Shown: piece after piece, positions 1,417-25,857 of the stretch
Numbering within the stretch: position 1 is the stretch's first letter
Layout: every line of letters begins with the position of its first letter
Assembly (NCBI GenBank): GCA_007125155.1
Contig: SLDR01000007.1
Coordinates: 1 to 38,181, forward strand
Source of the DNA: Candidatus Campbelliibacteriota bacterium
GTDB lineage: Bacteria; Patescibacteriota; Minisyncoccia; Phycocordibacterales; CSBR16-193
DNA: 38,181 nucleotides
Reading direction: 5' to 3'
Translations under genes and position numbers: made by a program
The notes under the pieces: model-generated
What the model was told of the DNA's origin: nothing
The model's database searches: none
What the model saw: the letters and a program-made list of their open reading frames with translations, nothing else

Positions 1417-2661
1417 TCATTCGTACTGCAGTGCCTCAACCGGATCCTTACGGGCCGCCTTTCGAGCGGGATACAGACCGAATATCAACCCGACGGTTGC
1501 CGAAACGCTAACACCCAAAATGGCTGCACCGACGGGAAAAGTGAACTTCCAGTTCATACCAAAATACTCAGATAACGCATAGGAAGCCGAGAAGGAGATC
1601 AAAACACCGATCAAAATACCCAGGACACCTCCCCATAAGGTCAGAATGACCGACTCAAAAAGAAATTGCTTTAAAATATCACGACGAGTCGCTCCCAGTG
1701 CCTTACGAAGGCCGATCTCCCTGGTTCTCTCCGTAACAGAGACAAGCATTATGTTCATGATGCCGATACCGCCGACCAGAAGTGCTATGGAAACGATAAA
1801 TGCCAAGAAAGCTGTTAAAATACCCATTATATTAGAGATCTGATCCCTCAAGCTCTGCTGTGTCATTACCATAAAGTTATCCTCATCACCCTCTCCGATG
1901 TTGCGAGTCTCTCTTAAGGTCGCAATTACGTCAAACCTGACCCTGTCGACATTGGCCTCACTGTCGGCGCGAATGATGAATCTGTCAAAATCCCTGGTTC
2001 CCAATATATAAGTCTGGGCGGCCGAGTATGGGATAATGATCAGATCATCAATGTTGAACATCCCCCTCTGGCCGGTTTGGGGATATACCCCCACGATCTG
2101 AAACCGGATCTCACCGATGGTAATACTGTTCCCGATGGCGTTATGTCGACCGAAAAGCTCTTCTTCTACACGAGAACCCACCACCGCGACCCTGGCCTGA
2201 GAAAGTATATCGGTCTCGGTGAAGTTTCTTCCTTGTTCGGGACGAACATTAAAGGTCTCCCCGAAAAATTCCGCGGATGCACCCAATGTTATGGCACCCC
2301 GGTACGCGCCTTCGTGAGATCTGGCGACGGCCGGTACTATGGCTATCGGCATTATACCTTCAAGATTGGGAACGTTGGCTCGTCTCTCAAGCGCCTCAAG
2401 ATCCCGCTCGGTCAAGAGCACATCGGCGAAAAATAGATCCATCATATCCGTGCCCCCGCCTGCGGTCGGAACCACGACCACGGTACTGGCTCCCATCTGA
2501 TCTATCTCCGAAATTATTAGATCGGTGGCTCCTTGACCCATTGACATTATTGCTATGATGGACGCCACCCCGATCAAAACTCCCAGGATCGTCAAAAAAG
2601 AGCGCATCTTGTTTGACATTATGGATCCCAGTGCCGATATTGTGGTAAATTTCAAATTCAT
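1417..2661 (-). CDS. MacB-like ABC transporter permease (MacB periplasmic core + FtsX domain), copy 2
   Basis: GGIGIMNIMLVSVTERTREIGLRKALGATRRDILKQFLFESV FtsX/MacB signature; C-terminal YPARKAARKDPVEALQYE. Confidence 0.93.
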   Translation of the reverse strand: MNLKFTTISALGSIMSNKMRSFLTILGVLIGVASIIAIMSMGQGATDLIISEIDQMGASTVVVVPTAGGGTDMMDLFFADVLLTERDLEALERRANVPNLEGIMPIAIVPAVARSHEGAYRGAITLGASAEFFGETFNVRPEQGRNFTETDILSQARVAVVGSRVEEELFGRHNAIGNSITIGEIRFQIVGVYPQTGQRGMFNIDDLIIIPYSAAQTYILGTRDFDRFIIRADSEANVDRVRFDVIATLRETRNIGEGDEDNFMVMTQQSLRDQISNIMGILTAFLAFIVSIALLVGGIGIMNIMLVSVTERTREIGLRKALGATRRDILKQFLFESVILTLWGGVLGILIGVLISFSASYALSEYFGMNWKFTFPVGAAILGVSVSATVGLIFGLYPARKAARKDPVEALQYE

Positions 2662-2686
2662 AATAATTCCCTTTTAAGGTCGGTCG

Positions 2687-3928
2687 TTACTTCTCATACT
2701 GTAGCGCCTCTACAGGGTCCTTCCTCGCCGCCTTTCGAGCCGGATATAAACCGAATATCAACCCCACCAATGCCGACATTCCCACTCCCAAAACGGCCGC
2801 CTCGATTGGAAAGATGAACTCCCAATCAAAAGGCTGTGTCCGAGTCAGTGTTTCACTAACAACGAAAGATATCAGAGCTCCGAAGATGATGCCGATCACC
2901 CCTCCGATAACCGTCAAAGTTACGGATTCCCATAAGAACTGTCTCAATATGGCTCTGTTGGTCGCCCCAAGCGCCTTCCTGAGACCGATCTCTTTGGTGC
3001 GCTCCGTAACGGAAACCAGCATTATATTCATGATTCCGATACCGCCGACCAGAAGCGCTATTGACACTACAAATATCAAAAAAGCATTGAGAATGTTCAT
3101 AACATCCCCGACCATCTTTTGCATGCTCTCTTGGGTCATAACCGTGAAATCATCGTCTTCTCCGGGCTGAATGTTTCTCGACTCTCTCAATGTGGCCTTA
3201 ATATCCGCAACCGCTCGGTCAACGTTCTCGGGGCTGTCTATTTTTATATAAAACTCGTCATAATGATAGTTACCCAAAATGTAGGCTTGGGCCGTGGTGT
3301 GAGGGATCAAAATAAAATTATCCATATCAATGGGACCGACGTATCCCCTTGAAGCATAAACACCGAGAACCAAGAAACGCACATTTCCGATCATTATTCT
3401 CTCACCCACCGCCTCATTCATACCGAAAAGCTCCTCCTTTACCCGAGAGCCGATGACAGCCACTCTTTCGTTGTTATTTATGTCAACACTGCTAAAATTA
3501 ACCCCTCTTTCCGGAACCATGTTGAAGGTATCGGTAAAAAATTCCGCATTCCCGCCCATCGTCATGGCGTCCCTGTAAACCTGACCCCCGTAACTGACCG
3601 GATCGGGAACTATGACCCCCGCCATGATATCAGACAGGTTCGGAACATTGGCGGGCCTAAGAAGAGCATCAAGATCGTTTTGAGTCAAAGGTTCCACAAA
3701 GAAAAAATCAACAAAACCGGACTCCATTGTCCCGGGAGCGACAGAGACCGTGTTGGCACCCATGATGTCGATCTCACTCATTATCAAGCCGGTCGCTCCT
3801 TGACCTATCGACATAACGGCAATGATCGCCGTCACTCCGATCATTATTCCCAGCATCGTTAAAAAAGACCGGACCTTGTGGACCGCTATCGTATTAAAAG
3901 ATGAAGATATGAGGAACTTCAGTTTCAT
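2687..3928 (-). CDS. MacB-like ABC transporter permease, copy 1 (tandem paralog)
   Basis: Same FtsX signature (GGIGIMNIMLVSVTERTKEIGLRKALGATNRAILRQFLWES); clearly paralogous to 1417..2661. Confidence 0.93.
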   Translation of the reverse strand: MKLKFLISSSFNTIAVHKVRSFLTMLGIMIGVTAIIAVMSIGQGATGLIMSEIDIMGANTVSVAPGTMESGFVDFFFVEPLTQNDLDALLRPANVPNLSDIMAGVIVPDPVSYGGQVYRDAMTMGGNAEFFTDTFNMVPERGVNFSSVDINNNERVAVIGSRVKEELFGMNEAVGERIMIGNVRFLVLGVYASRGYVGPIDMDNFILIPHTTAQAYILGNYHYDEFYIKIDSPENVDRAVADIKATLRESRNIQPGEDDDFTVMTQESMQKMVGDVMNILNAFLIFVVSIALLVGGIGIMNIMLVSVTERTKEIGLRKALGATNRAILRQFLWESVTLTVIGGVIGIIFGALISFVVSETLTRTQPFDWEFIFPIEAAVLGVGMSALVGLIFGLYPARKAARKDPVEALQYEK

Positions 3929-9102: not shown

Positions 9103-10035
9103 TTATCTGTCAAAAAGATACAAGCGATATTCATCTATCTCTCTTTGATCCAGATCATAGAAATATTTCCCTCTGTTATGGACCTCGGTCGCCAGTTTAA
9201 CCCCTACGAACCTCCAGTGCCACGGCTCAAAAATATAAGAAGGGTTCCCTTCAGGGTAAGAAATAACGAATCCGTATTTATGAGCATTCTCTTTCAGCCA
9301 TGAATAAAAATCTGTATTCTCAAAACCCCACAAAGCTCCACCCAGGGCTTTCGTGCTCAGATCCACGGCGGTCCCGAGCTGGTGTTCGGAGTACCCCTGG
9401 TCGGCCGAGAAACGATTCGCTCCGTCTCCGTATATGACGGAGTACCTGGTCTTTAGCTCCATCTGTTCTTCAAAAGAACGATAGCCGGAAACGATCCTCG
9501 GATCTATACCGTCATCCTCGGCAGCTTCCAAAAGGTCCAATAAAAAAGGCCACGCTTCTTCATGAAAGTACTCTTCGTCCTTGTCGGGAGGCAAGAACCT
9601 CTCCGGTATTTCGACAAGACCCGAAGGTTGGTAATTCTCATTCAAAAAATAAACTTTGGAGTACTTCTTTAAAAGCTCAGGATCTATCTTTTCCAATCTT
9701 CTTATTGTTTCGACCTCACCGGTGACCCTCTCCAGTCTAAGCATCAAAGAATCAACATATTGCATCTCCTCTTCCAGCTGTTCTCTTAAATTGTGATTGG
9801 CCTCCATAAGATCCCTGTTCTCCCTCTGAAGTTTCGATAACTCAAACCCCAACTCCCACAATTCACTCTCATACTGAACCCTTTCCTCTTCGGCATCTAT
9901 TTTCATTGTATATATATACGATCCGGAGAATGCACCCAACGAAAACAACAGCAATAAAACGAAAAGGAGTGCCCATCTGGTCCTTTTCCGTTTTACCGCA
10001 CCTGAATCGGAAAGATTATCGGAAGGTCTATCCAT
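9103..10035 (-). CDS. D-alanyl-D-alanine carboxypeptidase, VanY/M15B family, membrane anchored with coiled coil
   Basis: YSEHQLGTAVDLS (SxHxxGxAxD) and FEPWHWRFVG motifs; N-terminal TM followed by Glu-rich coiled coil. Confidence 0.92.
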   Translation of the reverse strand: MDRPSDNLSDSGAVKRKRTRWALLFVLLLLFSLGAFSGSYIYTMKIDAEEERVQYESELWELGFELSKLQRENRDLMEANHNLREQLEEEMQYVDSLMLRLERVTGEVETIRRLEKIDPELLKKYSKVYFLNENYQPSGLVEIPERFLPPDKDEEYFHEEAWPFLLDLLEAAEDDGIDPRIVSGYRSFEEQMELKTRYSVIYGDGANRFSADQGYSEHQLGTAVDLSTKALGGALWGFENTDFYSWLKENAHKYGFVISYPEGNPSYIFEPWHWRFVGVKLATEVHNRGKYFYDLDQREIDEYRLYLFDR

Positions 10036-15856: not shown

Positions 15857-16789
15857 TCATTCGGTCTCTCCGAAATATTCAAGAACAGCCAGGACACCGG
15901 CCAGGTTCTTCTCCCACTCCATATCATCATGGGTTGTGAACTCGATAGTTATTGACGGTATCCCCAATGTCGCAAGCCACCCCTCTGCATCGCCTGTTAT
16001 CTCATAGAAATCGAATGATTCAATAGCGGGATATCCCGAAGCTTCCGCATAAACATTCATAACATCAATGGTTCCCGGAAGAATACCCTCGTTACATTCG
16101 GACCCGAAGACCGCACCCGCCGCACTGTGCCAAAATATAACGGCATCCGGTTCATACTCAGAAACCAGATCCCTTATGGCCCTTGCCTCCGGTTCCGAGA
16201 AAGCTTCTTCCCCTGCGTCTATAACTTCCCCTTGCCAGGTGCTTTCCGACTGCCAGTTACAATCGAAGTTTCTGTTCAGATCAACACCATTAGCGTTAAA
16301 TCTCCCCGGGATCGTTTCCTCAAAAGACGGGATGTCATCGGGGGTGAACCTTCCCGTCTTTCCGGTGACCATTTCAACTCCATCCGGATTCGCCGACGGA
16401 ACCACACTGACACTGACCGATTCCGGGATGATATCCGGATTTTCTTCAAAATGATCTATCAATTCATAAGCAAGTAACACGGAATTCCACTCATATCCGC
16501 CATGTATACCTCCGACGAACACGACATGGGCTCTCTCCTCGTCTCCTTCAACATGGTTGAAGGTCTGAACCTCTATGTCCCTTCCCATTACGGAAGAACC
16601 TATCACCCTTCCGGATGAACCGGTCTCCTTCGGTTCATCTACCGGATCAGCAACTTCAACGACACTATCCACCTCGGGTTCATCCTCGGTACTCCTTTCG
16701 AAATTAACAAGATAGATCACGGAGGAGAATAAAAGAACTCCCCCTATGATACCGAAAACCACCGGTTTGGTTATTTGCAAACTATCCAT
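15857..16789 (-). CDS. M14-family zinc carboxypeptidase-like protein, membrane anchored (catalytic residues retained)
   Basis: VGGIHGGYEWNS, NPDGVEM, NANGVDLNRNFDCNW, VIFWHSAAG, SITIEF (candidate catalytic Glu). Confidence 0.85.
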   Translation of the reverse strand: MDSLQITKPVVFGIIGGVLLFSSVIYLVNFERSTEDEPEVDSVVEVADPVDEPKETGSSGRVIGSSVMGRDIEVQTFNHVEGDEERAHVVFVGGIHGGYEWNSVLLAYELIDHFEENPDIIPESVSVSVVPSANPDGVEMVTGKTGRFTPDDIPSFEETIPGRFNANGVDLNRNFDCNWQSESTWQGEVIDAGEEAFSEPEARAIRDLVSEYEPDAVIFWHSAAGAVFGSECNEGILPGTIDVMNVYAEASGYPAIESFDFYEITGDAEGWLATLGIPSITIEFTTHDDMEWEKNLAGVLAVLEYFGETE

Positions 16790-16801
16790 AATAAAGGAGA
16801 C

Positions 16802-17734
16802 CTATTGATTTCCATACTCTCGGATCACAGCCTCGACTCCGGTTCTATTCTCTGACCAGTCTGTGGAATCATGCGAATTGAGTATGACGCTTATGGCCGG
16901 TACATTTATACTTGCCATCCAATCTGCCGCATCCCCGGTGATCTTATAAGAATCAAAGACCCCTTCAGCTGAATAACCCGATGCATCAGCGTAAATGTTC
17001 ATGAGTCTATCGGTTTCCTCCAAAGCCGGACCGTTGCAACTTGAGGAAAAGACCCCTCCTCCGGCGCTGTAATAAACGACCACTGCCGAAGGGTCGCTAT
17101 TTAGAACATGGTCTTTGAGCGCGTCCGCCTCCGGCTCAGAGAAAGGGTTGCTTCCCGCATCAACCACTTGAGTTCCCCAAACACTTGTCGTCTCCCAGTT
17201 GCAATCAAAGTTTCTGTTCAGATCGACACCGTTGGCGTTGAACCTGCCTTCTGCCGTATTCCCTGAAACATCCGATGGGGTAAACCTTCCCTCAATACCT
17301 ACGACTCGATAAAGTCCGTCCGGGTTGAGGGTCGGTATCACGGTAACCTTTAAATTCTCCGGTATCGACTCCAAGTTCGTCTCGAAGTGATCAACCAGTC
17401 CGTACCCCAACAGAGCCGTGTTCCAAGAGTACCCACCGTGAATTCCTCCCACGAAAAGTATTGTCTCATCCCCTCCGCCAAAATGGTAAGCTGTTATATC
17501 CCTGCCCTGAACCGATCTTCCTATAACTTCCTCATACGACTCCCTAACCCGAGTCTCTTCATCTTCCAAATCAGCCTCATCGGCATCGCCGTCGAGGTCA
17601 TCATCATCCGGTTCCTCCATATCGATCGGTTCATCAGGTTCCTCCTCGGTGACGGTAAAAAGGTCTGTTGCCAGAAAAAGATAAGCCCCGACTCCCAGAA
17701 TCGCAATAAAAACAAAAGCCAAAAAGTATTTCAT
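16802..17734 (-). CDS. M14-family pseudopeptidase paralog, membrane anchored with acidic linker
   Basis: Collinear with 15857..16789 (VGGIHGGYSWNT, NANGVDLNRNFDCNW) but E->S, H->Y (VVVYYSAGG) and E->I (AISVIL) at catalytic positions. Confidence 0.85.
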   Translation of the reverse strand: MKYFLAFVFIAILGVGAYLFLATDLFTVTEEEPDEPIDMEEPDDDDLDGDADEADLEDEETRVRESYEEVIGRSVQGRDITAYHFGGGDETILFVGGIHGGYSWNTALLGYGLVDHFETNLESIPENLKVTVIPTLNPDGLYRVVGIEGRFTPSDVSGNTAEGRFNANGVDLNRNFDCNWETTSVWGTQVVDAGSNPFSEPEADALKDHVLNSDPSAVVVYYSAGGGVFSSSCNGPALEETDRLMNIYADASGYSAEGVFDSYKITGDAADWMASINVPAISVILNSHDSTDWSENRTGVEAVIREYGNQ

Positions 17735-19752: not shown

Positions 19753-20415
19753 TCAATCCTTGGAGATCACGACCTCCTCAATGACCATGTCTGCGACAGG
19801 TTTATCTTTCGCACCCGTTTCCGTTGTGGCAATAGCGTCAACGACATCCATTCCCTCAACAACCCTTCCGAATATGGTGTATTCATAAGGAAGCGGAGTA
19901 TCTTTATGCATTATGAAGAACTGGCTTCCGTTGGTATTCGGTCCGCTGTTAGCCATGGCCAATGTTCCGCGAACATAACCCCTTTGAGCTATTTCCGAGC
20001 TCGGGTCAAACTCGTCATCAAATGAGTATCCCGGTCCACCTGTTCCCGTACCGGTGGGATCTCCTCCTTGGATCATGAATCCTTCGATCACACGATGGAA
20101 TATGACACCGTCATAAAATCCGGTCTCGGCAAGTCTTTGAAAATTAAGAACGGTGTTAGGGGCCAGTTCGGGATAGAACTCCAGAACAATATCCCCCTCC
20201 GATGTCTTTAGTGTGGCTTGGGTCATTGTTATTTCATAATTATCTGATAAATCCTCATCTCCATCCGACTCCGTTAAAATTTCTCCGCTCTCTTCAGGGT
20301 CTTCGTCAATGAACAGATCTCCGTGGTCCGTAGATTCCCCCATATTTACATAAAATAAGGCTCCACCAAGAGATACGAAGAAGATGGTTATTAATAAAAC
20401 TGTGCTTTTTTTCAT
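19753..20415 (-). CDS. Cyclophilin-type peptidyl-prolyl cis-trans isomerase, membrane anchored
   Basis: FYDGVIFHRVIEGFMIQGGDPTGTGTGGPGYSFDDEF; NGSQFFIM. Confidence 0.95.
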   Translation of the reverse strand: MKKSTVLLITIFFVSLGGALFYVNMGESTDHGDLFIDEDPEESGEILTESDGDEDLSDNYEITMTQATLKTSEGDIVLEFYPELAPNTVLNFQRLAETGFYDGVIFHRVIEGFMIQGGDPTGTGTGGPGYSFDDEFDPSSEIAQRGYVRGTLAMANSGPNTNGSQFFIMHKDTPLPYEYTIFGRVVEGMDVVDAIATTETGAKDKPVADMVIEEVVISKD

Positions 20416-24252: not shown

Positions 24253-25857
24253 CTATTCGACCACCACAGTTCCCTCCATACCCGGGTGGAGTGTGCAGAT
24301 GTAATCGAAGGTACCGGATTGGTCAAAGGTATGAATGAAGGTCTCTCCGGCTTCCACGTTGCCGGAATCAAAATTTCCTTCGCTTGTGACGGTATGAATC
24401 TCCGCCCCTTCGTTTATCCATCTGACCTCGGTCCCTTCGGAGACGGTAACAACCTCCGGGTCAAAAGCGTTATCCTCCATCCTTATCGTAACCTCGTCAG
24501 GTTCATCGTCAGGTTCATCAAAATCAACGATCCTATAAATCCGTCCGGTGTTCCCGCTCGGGCCCGAATTTTCCGTGGCCAAAAGATATAATTCTCCGTC
24601 GGCATCCTCGCCGACCCCTTTTATGAACAGACCCAATCGGCCTTCATCATTCCCGTTTGATACGGACAACTCTCTCATACTCCATTCATTATCTTCCAAT
24701 GTTGCCGCAAAAACGCTACCATCACCCCCCTCGAATCCTCGGCTCCAATCGGCGAAAACATAGTCGCCTTCCAGGCCGGTGAGGATCTCTCCGCGATAAA
24801 CATACCCTCCGACTATAGCCACGCCCAAGCCGTCATGTCTGGCATTCCTGTATTCGAATATCGGATCTATGAGATCTTCGCCTCTGGCTCCGATCGTCGG
24901 ACACTCATCCGGAGGATCGGTGGGATCATCCGGATCGAAACAGTGCGTGCCTTCCCTAATATTCCAGCCGTAATTACCTCCGGCCCTGACAATGTTAACC
25001 TCTTCCCACAGATCTTCGCCCACATCGGCAACGAAAAGTTCGTTATCTCCCCCTCTGTCGAAGGAGATGTGATAAGGATTTCTGAAACCATAAGCGAATA
25101 TCTCATCAAGTCCTTCCTCATCATCAACGAACGGGTTGTCCAAAGGAACGGAATAAGATCCTTCTTGATTCACATCTATCCTGAGTATGCTTCCCAAAGG
25201 CGTCGATATGTCCTGGCCATTGCCCATATCCGGATGTCCCAAACCTTCATCGCCCGAACCCCCACCGTCACCTAACGGGATATAAAGTGATCCGTCCGGT
25301 CCGAAAACTATATGTCCGCCATTGTGATTTGACTGAGGCTGATCGAACGTGATCATTATTCTCTCCGAGTTGGGATCGGCTACGTTAGGATTATCCTCAT
25401 CCACGGAGAACTCCGATATCACTGAAGTATGGTCCCACCCTTCAGGGGCACCCTCCCTCAGAGGTGCACTGTAATGAACGAAAAAGCGTCCATTCATATC
25501 GAAATTCGGATGAAAGGCCAGACCTAGGAGTCCTCTTTCATCGTATCCGGGACTCAAATTAACTATTCTCTCTCTTATGTCCAAGAAACTCCCCTCGATC
25601 AAATTCCCTTCATCGTCCACTATTTCGACCAAACCCACCTGATCTACCACAAACATCCTTCCGGTTCCGTCATCGGCCGAAACATAACCCACCGGCGAAA
25701 CAAAACCGTCCGCAACCAACTCTACCGCCACCTGATCGGTGGGGGCGTCCGGATCAGGTGCGTCTCTGAATACATCACTTGTCATTGCGAAAGAGATAAC
25801 GACTATGGCAACGAAAGCCACCGACGCCACGATCAATATTGATGTTTTGTTTTTCAT
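24253..25857 (-). CDS. Glucose/sorbosone dehydrogenase-family protein fused to a C-terminal cupredoxin domain
   Basis: Beta-propeller GSDH motifs (ERGLLGLAFHPNF, NHNGGHIVFGPDGSLYIPLGDGG, EIFAYGFRNPYHISFD); C-terminal cupredoxin with EIHTVTS and YICTLHPGM ligands. Confidence 0.9.
   Translation of the reverse strand: MKNKTSILIVASVAFVAIVVISFAMTSDVFRDAPDPDAPTDQVAVELVADGFVSPVGYVSADDGTGRMFVVDQVGLVEIVDDEGNLIEGSFLDIRERIVNLSPGYDERGLLGLAFHPNFDMNGRFFVHYSAPLREGAPEGWDHTSVISEFSVDEDNPNVADPNSERIMITFDQPQSNHNGGHIVFGPDGSLYIPLGDGGGSGDEGLGHPDMGNGQDISTPLGSILRIDVNQEGSYSVPLDNPFVDDEEGLDEIFAYGFRNPYHISFDRGGDNELFVADVGEDLWEEVNIVRAGGNYGWNIREGTHCFDPDDPTDPPDECPTIGARGEDLIDPIFEYRNARHDGLGVAIVGGYVYRGEILTGLEGDYVFADWSRGFEGGDGSVFAATLEDNEWSMRELSVSNGNDEGRLGLFIKGVGEDADGELYLLATENSGPSGNTGRIYRIVDFDEPDDEPDEVTIRMEDNAFDPEVVTVSEGTEVRWINEGAEIHTVTSEGNFDSGNVEAGETFIHTFDQSGTFDYICTLHPGMEGTVVVE

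Follow-up and report, generated by a model that had tools for sequence, protein, structure and literature searches.

In this study, we have explored a pair of adjacent M14 peptidase genes, B and A, which, judged by sequence comparison, is a conserved two-gene unit in one order of Paceibacteria (Patescibacteria/CPR). We have little doubt that B, the upstream gene, codes for a conserved M14 pseudopeptidase, while A is predicted to be an active zinc carboxypeptidase with the M14 fold and a membrane anchor.

The locus and its two genes

The window (the whole stretch of DNA that was analysed, 38,181 nucleotides) holds two open reading frames of 310 codons, both on the minus strand:

16802..17734, minus strand: gene B, putative M14 pseudopeptidase, upstream in the pair (310 aa; PF00246 64.9 bits)
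15857..16789, minus strand: gene A, intact M14 metallocarboxypeptidase by prediction, downstream in the pair (310 aa; PF00246 86.6 bits)

The minus-strand frames of both are open, and transcription runs from B (17734..16802) over 12 nt to A (16789..15857). A forward-strand reading of the same coordinates was discarded, its translation being riddled with stops. Both proteins score above the gathering cut-off of the Pfam model Peptidase_M14 (21.6 bits), and they share 52% identity over 246 residues of the M14 domain (E=3e-89), in line with the preliminary description of this DNA, which had reported adjacent 310-aa ORFs with alignable ectodomains. That description had also presented the pseudopeptidase as the second copy, which holds for the order of coordinates and fails for the order of transcription, since B is the first gene on the minus strand. 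A and B are the sole M14 genes detected in this genome (745 kb, 99% complete). The two proteins share one layout, with a membrane anchor at the N-terminus (helix 8-30 in A, 2-25 in B), an acidic disordered linker and an M14 domain (about residues 59-308 in A and 66-308 in B). Their AF2 models (pLDDT 91.2 for A and 89.1 for B) were best matched by Foldseek to carboxypeptidase T (1obr, E=2.7e-16) and carboxypeptidase A (2ctb, E=6.6e-14), respectively, and the model of A also matched MpaA (5hxd, TMt 0.73).

Using the numbering of bovine CPA, transferred to A and B through PDB alignments, the residues of A correspond as follows: His69 to His96, Glu72 to Glu100, Asn144/Arg145 to Asn172/Arg173, His196 to His221, Tyr248 to Tyr262 and Glu270 to Glu283. 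The key codons of A, with their predicted roles, are:

16502..16504, minus strand: A His96, first zinc ligand, in the HxxxE form HGGYE (alignment of A copies)
16490..16492, minus strand: A Glu100, second zinc ligand, invariant across A copies
16127..16129, minus strand: A His221, third zinc ligand, invariant across A copies
15983..15985, minus strand: A Glu269, at the place of CPA residue 255 (S1' specificity), Glu in 82 and Asp in 7 A copies
15941..15943, minus strand: A Glu283 (GAG), general base, invariant across A copies

The candidate zinc and catalytic residues first noticed in this gene were confirmed in both the codons and the alignment. The equivalents of the general base Glu270, of Asn144/Arg145 and of Tyr248 are invariant in the readable A copies, as is the His/Glu/His zinc set, but the first zinc motif (HGGYE, window 16490..16504) has the form HxxxE, with one more residue between His and Glu than in the canonical HxxE of M14. 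The longer form is common to A and B, and HxxE is the form seen in the divergent outgroup sequences from the class. Because it is invariant across the A copies, this non-standard spacing is probably functional in A. Residue 255 of CPA is the S1' specificity determinant in M14 carboxypeptidases; at this position the B copies have Val (71) or Thr (11) in place of the acidic residue of the A copies, and the residue that aligns with A Glu269 in a carboxypeptidase B is the Asp of GGSDDW. Based on this acidic S1' residue, we predict that A removes a basic C-terminal residue, a reading of S1' that is alignment-based and that stands beside the Ala found at the same position in both lone intact copies, which have no B.

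The corresponding codons of B are:

17438..17440, minus strand: B His99 (His69 of bovine CPA), retained in all B copies
17426..17428, minus strand: B Ser103 (TCT), replacing zinc ligand Glu72; Glu in 52, Ser in 28, Ala in 6 and Gly in 4 of 90 B copies
17069..17071, minus strand: B Tyr222 (TAC), replacing zinc ligand His196; Tyr in 83 and Phe in 7 of 90 B copies, His in none
16883..16885, minus strand: B Ile284 (ATA), replacing general base Glu270; Leu in 84, Ile in 4 and Val in 1 of the B copies, Glu in none

All three replacements that had been proposed for B (Glu to Ser by a TCT codon, His to Tyr, Glu to Ile) are present at the codon level, and the first His (His99) and the NRNFDCNW segment are still there, as also claimed. 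The loss of essential residues concerns every copy that could be read, with Tyr or Phe at the His196 equivalent (90/90) and a hydrophobic residue at the Glu270 equivalent (89/89). The cleft is otherwise kept: Arg145 in 90/90 B copies, Asn144 in 81/90, Tyr248 in 89/89 and Arg164, which may be the equivalent of Arg127, in 90/90. The Glu72 site is needed mainly for the metal, and its equivalent in B has gone through 19 state changes by parsimony. Since it drifts among Glu, Ser, Ala and Gly, a conserved metal site in B is unlikely, and no other residue conserved in B obviously substitutes for the lost ligands. We infer that B is without zinc and without catalysis; cleft residues that are kept next to a drifting Glu72 site form the pattern that would be expected if binding were selected and catalysis were not. 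B could instead still be an enzyme, with Tyr222 or another residue as ligand or base for a different chemistry or metal, as the invariant His99 and the near-fixation of the replacement as Tyr (83/90) might suggest. We consider this very improbable, given that Phe takes the place of Tyr in 7 copies, that the Glu72 site varies and that the Glu270 site is always hydrophobic, which leaves no conserved metal set or general base.

Conservation of the pair across the order

A search with B as query found the family encoded in 95 of the 397 genomes of the order. In 86 of these the two genes are adjacent in the order B-A, so the active/inactive pair recurs in related genomes with a fixed arrangement; in six a contig end cuts one of the copies, two have a lone intact copy and one has an independent pair. 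Apart from the contig ends and the two lone-copy genomes, B stands beside A. The loci were fetched, ORFs called and proteins aligned, which gave 84 adjacent same-strand pairs for comparison. At the His196 site the upstream copies have Tyr in 78 pairs and Phe in 6, and their Glu270 site is occupied by Leu (77), Ile (5) or Val (1). The downstream copies, wherever the site could be read, all retain His (83) and Glu (82). As the same pattern is found in 84 of 84 aligned pairs, it lies far above the level of chance. Three more pairs within the order obey the rule of a dead upstream and an intact downstream copy, and the pair is also present in four genomes from other orders of the class. Searches outside the class gave distant M14 proteins only, and there was no plasmid match and no viral match to strict motifs.

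In 42 of the 82 pairs, the stop codon of B shares one base with the start codon of A, and an N-terminal hydrophobic span is present in all of the 82 A and 82 B copies tested. The distance matrices of A and B are correlated (r=0.67; the highest value among 500 shuffles was 0.31), which is a sign of joint inheritance and not of contact. Two genomes depart from the usual layout: G335 carries two complete B-A pairs (L100 and L101), about 70% identical to each other, and in G344 (L118, 3015..3912) a frame-shifted B lies next to an intact A, either through an assembly error or through decay or real disruption.

Origin of the pair and selection on B

In a FastTree phylogeny, 90 A and 90 B copies fall into separate clades (support 0.93 and 0.955), and this separation suggests that the A/B split goes back to one old duplication. 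In a reduced ML tree B is still a clade (88), and the monophyly of A is weakly supported. We rejected recurrent independent loss within the order, as the B copies form one clade; the exception is the separate duplication in G041, described below. Root-to-tip length is 0.74 for B vs 0.79 for A, and in four comparisons with unsaturated dS the dN/dS values were 0.14, 0.12, 0.11 and 0.07 for B and 0.11, 0.14, 0.115 and 0.085 for A. The pseudopeptidase, at about 0.07-0.14, is therefore under the same purifying selection as its active neighbour, and a gene that has been preserved for as long as A must have a job of its own.

These data bear on the possibility that B is a decaying duplicate or a recurrent, functionless pseudogene. 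Its catalytic residues are gone, its Glu72 equivalent drifts and one B is frame-shifted (G344), all of which decay would explain. Decay would not be expected to leave a single clade retained across the order, a dN/dS of about 0.1, a mean column identity higher than that of A (54% vs 50%) and a near-invariant signature specific to B (VWYSAAGGV, GDMVNW and AISVLL, including Tyr222, Gly226-Gly227 and Leu/Ile284), and we regard it as scarcely credible. The preliminary description had argued that selective loss of catalytic residues with the fold kept points to a functional pseudoenzyme; order-wide retention, dN/dS and the kept cleft residues now support this view.

One genome, G041, has two M14 genes (L139, 1501..2409 and 2442..3320) with 54% mutual identity and about 31-35% identity to the pair of the window. 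The upstream copy is intact (HTGKE, WHSKAG, VELET) and the downstream copy has Tyr at His196 and Val at Glu270, a gene order reversed compared to B-A. The two copies are sisters with full support, and a constraint joining one to A and the other to B was rejected (AU p=7.2e-5). On these grounds, the same split into an active and a dead copy seems to have evolved on two occasions, in opposite gene orders, the second time in one genome; the sole sampled congener of G041 is without these genes. Each origin, B-A and G041, would have involved a His-to-Tyr and a Glu-to-hydrophobic loss in one copy. Two further genomes, G015 and G281, carry one intact copy each and no B, which indicates that a related enzyme can exist alone. 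These lone copies (L132, 1348..2265, and L136, 780..2048) have His196 and Glu270 intact, Gln replaces Glu72 in L136, and AU tests on their placement relative to A and B gave no decision.

Gene neighbourhood

Two genes near the pair are relevant to its possible substrate:

9103..10035, minus strand: VanY-type (M15) D-Ala-D-Ala carboxypeptidase (PF02557), 5.8 kb from the pair in this genome
17857..19662, minus strand: gamma-glutamyltranspeptidase (PF01019), membrane-anchored, directly upstream of the pair

In 18 of 83 loci a VanY-type gene (PF02557) is no more than six genes away from the pair, in 14 of them directly adjacent, on either side. This adjacency is far above chance, with an expectation taken from a rough gene number and kinship ignored. 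VanY is present in 89 of the 95 family-bearing genomes vs 141 of the 302 genomes without the family (odds ratio 17, ignoring phylogeny and genome size). VanY is thus a probable functional associate and not a core part of the unit. No larger conserved operon was found: apart from VanY, no neighbour cluster occurs in more than 12 of the 83 loci. Two other genes of the window were observed in passing. One, for a prolyl isomerase of the cyclophilin type (19756..20415, minus strand), is two genes upstream of the pair, and its product has a membrane or signal segment at the N-terminus. The other (24253..25857, minus strand) looks by eye like a beta-propeller of the sugar-dehydrogenase type joined to a cupredoxin-like domain at the C-terminus, an uncommon find in a CPR genome of 745 kb.

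Proposed function

Our model, to which we give an even chance as a whole, takes A to be a carboxypeptidase of the peptidoglycan type, anchored in the membrane, and B to be a partner of A that does not catalyse but binds the substrate or serves as a scaffold. The losses in B and their order-wide fixation, the cleft residues, purifying selection, gene order, stop/start overlap and co-inheritance are what is read from sequence; from there we infer the pairing and the substrate. The locus would encode a two-protein extracytoplasmic carboxypeptidase unit, presumably exported, with B and A probably on one mRNA, B before A, and anchored in the same membrane. VanY would first take the terminal D-Ala from stem peptides, and A would then remove meso-diaminopimelate (mDAP) or Lys from the stem-peptide end, the DL-carboxypeptidase step. 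The acidic S1' residue, the MpaA-like sequence, the association with VanY and the envelope location point to mDAP or Lys as the substrate of A, and the proximity of VanY and its co-occurrence with the pair suggest the successive trimming, for which Helicobacter, with its M14 enzyme Csd4, offers a parallel. B, the dead paralogue, would grip the C-terminal carboxylate of the peptide through its kept residues, although its ligand could be other than a stem peptide.

A different use of the same proteins would be nutrient scavenging, in which A trims basic residues of exogenous peptides and B captures peptides on the cell surface, with no role in the cell wall. Such a unit would suit Paceibacteria as reduced, host-dependent and presumably auxotrophic cells, cultivated relatives express proteins similar to signal-peptide peptidases (PMC10936435), an acidic S1' fits Lys/Arg C-termini as well as mDAP, and the gamma-glutamyltranspeptidase directly upstream in the window could also free amino acids. 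However, this last gene is a neighbour of the pair in this genome alone, and the other loci examined are without it. The neighbour that does recur is VanY, a carboxypeptidase of peptidoglycan, and among NCBIfam models A and B come closest to that of the murein amidase MpaA, though both are well under its cut-off. Scavenging seems to us an unlikely role.

Within the peptidoglycan model, B would most likely form a heterodimer with A, in which it would bind the stem peptide and position or activate its partner. We put a heterodimer, with B binding substrate or activating A, at about even odds, and favour it by analogy with Csd1/Csd2, the best analogue, and with MPP, the textbook example. B might rather be an independent binding protein with an adhesin- or lectin-like M14 cleft (for host or self peptidoglycan, for example), merely co-transcribed with A and making no contact with it. 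Vertebrate M14 pseudopeptidases do bind collagens and other proteins and not an active M14 partner (PMC11266112), and carboxylate-binding residues are retained in B. This is nevertheless doubtful in our opinion, as the near-perfect co-occurrence with A, the fixed order and the stop/start overlap across the order favour a joint function, as does the second, independent active/pseudo pair in G041.

Comparison with known systems

The nearest NCBIfam model for both proteins is that of MpaA, the M14 murein tripeptide amidase (PDB 5hxd, 4axv). The likeness lies in the fold, as seen in the Foldseek match of A, and in the GVDLNRNF segment, with a peptidoglycan peptide as the proposed common substrate; the scores of A and B against this model (NF007897; 47.5 and 27.6) are below the equivalog cut-off of 157. 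Unlike MpaA, A and B are membrane-anchored, have the HxxxE motif and form an active/dead pair. A also resembles the M14 DL-carboxypeptidases Csd4 and Pgp1 of Helicobacter and Campylobacter, whose M14 domain trims mDAP. In Csd4, Asn93/Arg94 hold the carboxylate (PMC4220969), and A shares with this enzyme the Asn-Arg pair and a non-canonical metal motif. There are clear differences: Csd4 has QxxE and three domains (PMC4220969), A has HxxxE and a single M14 domain after the anchor, and the partner of Csd4, Csd5, is not described in that study as an inactive M14 copy, unlike B.

The closest functional analogue of A/B is found in another peptidase family and fold, the M23 peptidoglycan-peptidase paralogues Csd1 and Csd2 of Helicobacter, where zinc-bound Csd1 forms a heterodimer with metal-free Csd2, which has incomplete ligands (PMC5053510); for A and B, such a complex would be by analogy. 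In MPP alpha/beta (M16), an inactive subunit without zinc ligands aids the active one (PMC11266112), in an unrelated fold, a eukaryotic organelle and on a different substrate. The joint encoding of active and inactive paralogues that would be looked for in a system of the MPP and Csd1/Csd2 kind is seen for A and B in 86 genomes. The proposed role of B is also comparable to that of EnvC, NlpD and ActS, peptidase-like proteins with a degenerate LytM domain that turn on a hydrolase of the cell wall, with the difference that these activate amidases of another family and B would act on its own active paralogue. Among M14 pseudopeptidases, AEBP1, CPXM1/2, CPD domain III and Ecm14 have the same fold, and several are, like B, without the His196 and Glu270 equivalents (PMC11266112). 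All are eukaryotic, all five listed are altered at Arg145, which is kept in B, and, unlike B, eukaryotic M14 pseudopeptidases are not described beside a dedicated active twin gene.

Significance

A 2024 review of metallopeptidase pseudoenzymes gives M14 cases from vertebrates and yeast only (PMC11266112). Our literature search, mostly without subscription papers, found no description of a bacterial M14 pseudoenzyme or of an active/pseudo M14 pair, and no paper combining Patescibacteria, M14 and carboxypeptidase. The pairing of active and inactive peptidases is known; a bacterial, order-wide M14 version of it, apparently evolved twice, appears to be new. The broadest reading of our data falls somewhat short of an even chance: active/pseudo M14 heterodimers would be a common envelope enzyme of the order, evolved at least two times (B-A and G041), with the dead subunit as a needed stem-peptide-binding module, and these would be the first M14 pseudopeptidases reported from bacteria.

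In conclusion, the M14 pseudopeptidases reviewed so far are eukaryotic and mostly binding proteins, while the one presented here would be bacterial and kept order-wide beside its active twin. Automatic annotation by Pfam would label both genes as zinc carboxypeptidases, which is misleading for B. About 90 natural pairs are available for studying how an inactive peptidase may serve an active one. Their hosts are episymbiont-type CPR cells, mostly uncultured, whose wall biology is almost unexplored, and the pair, together with the linked VanY, offers an expressible handle on it.
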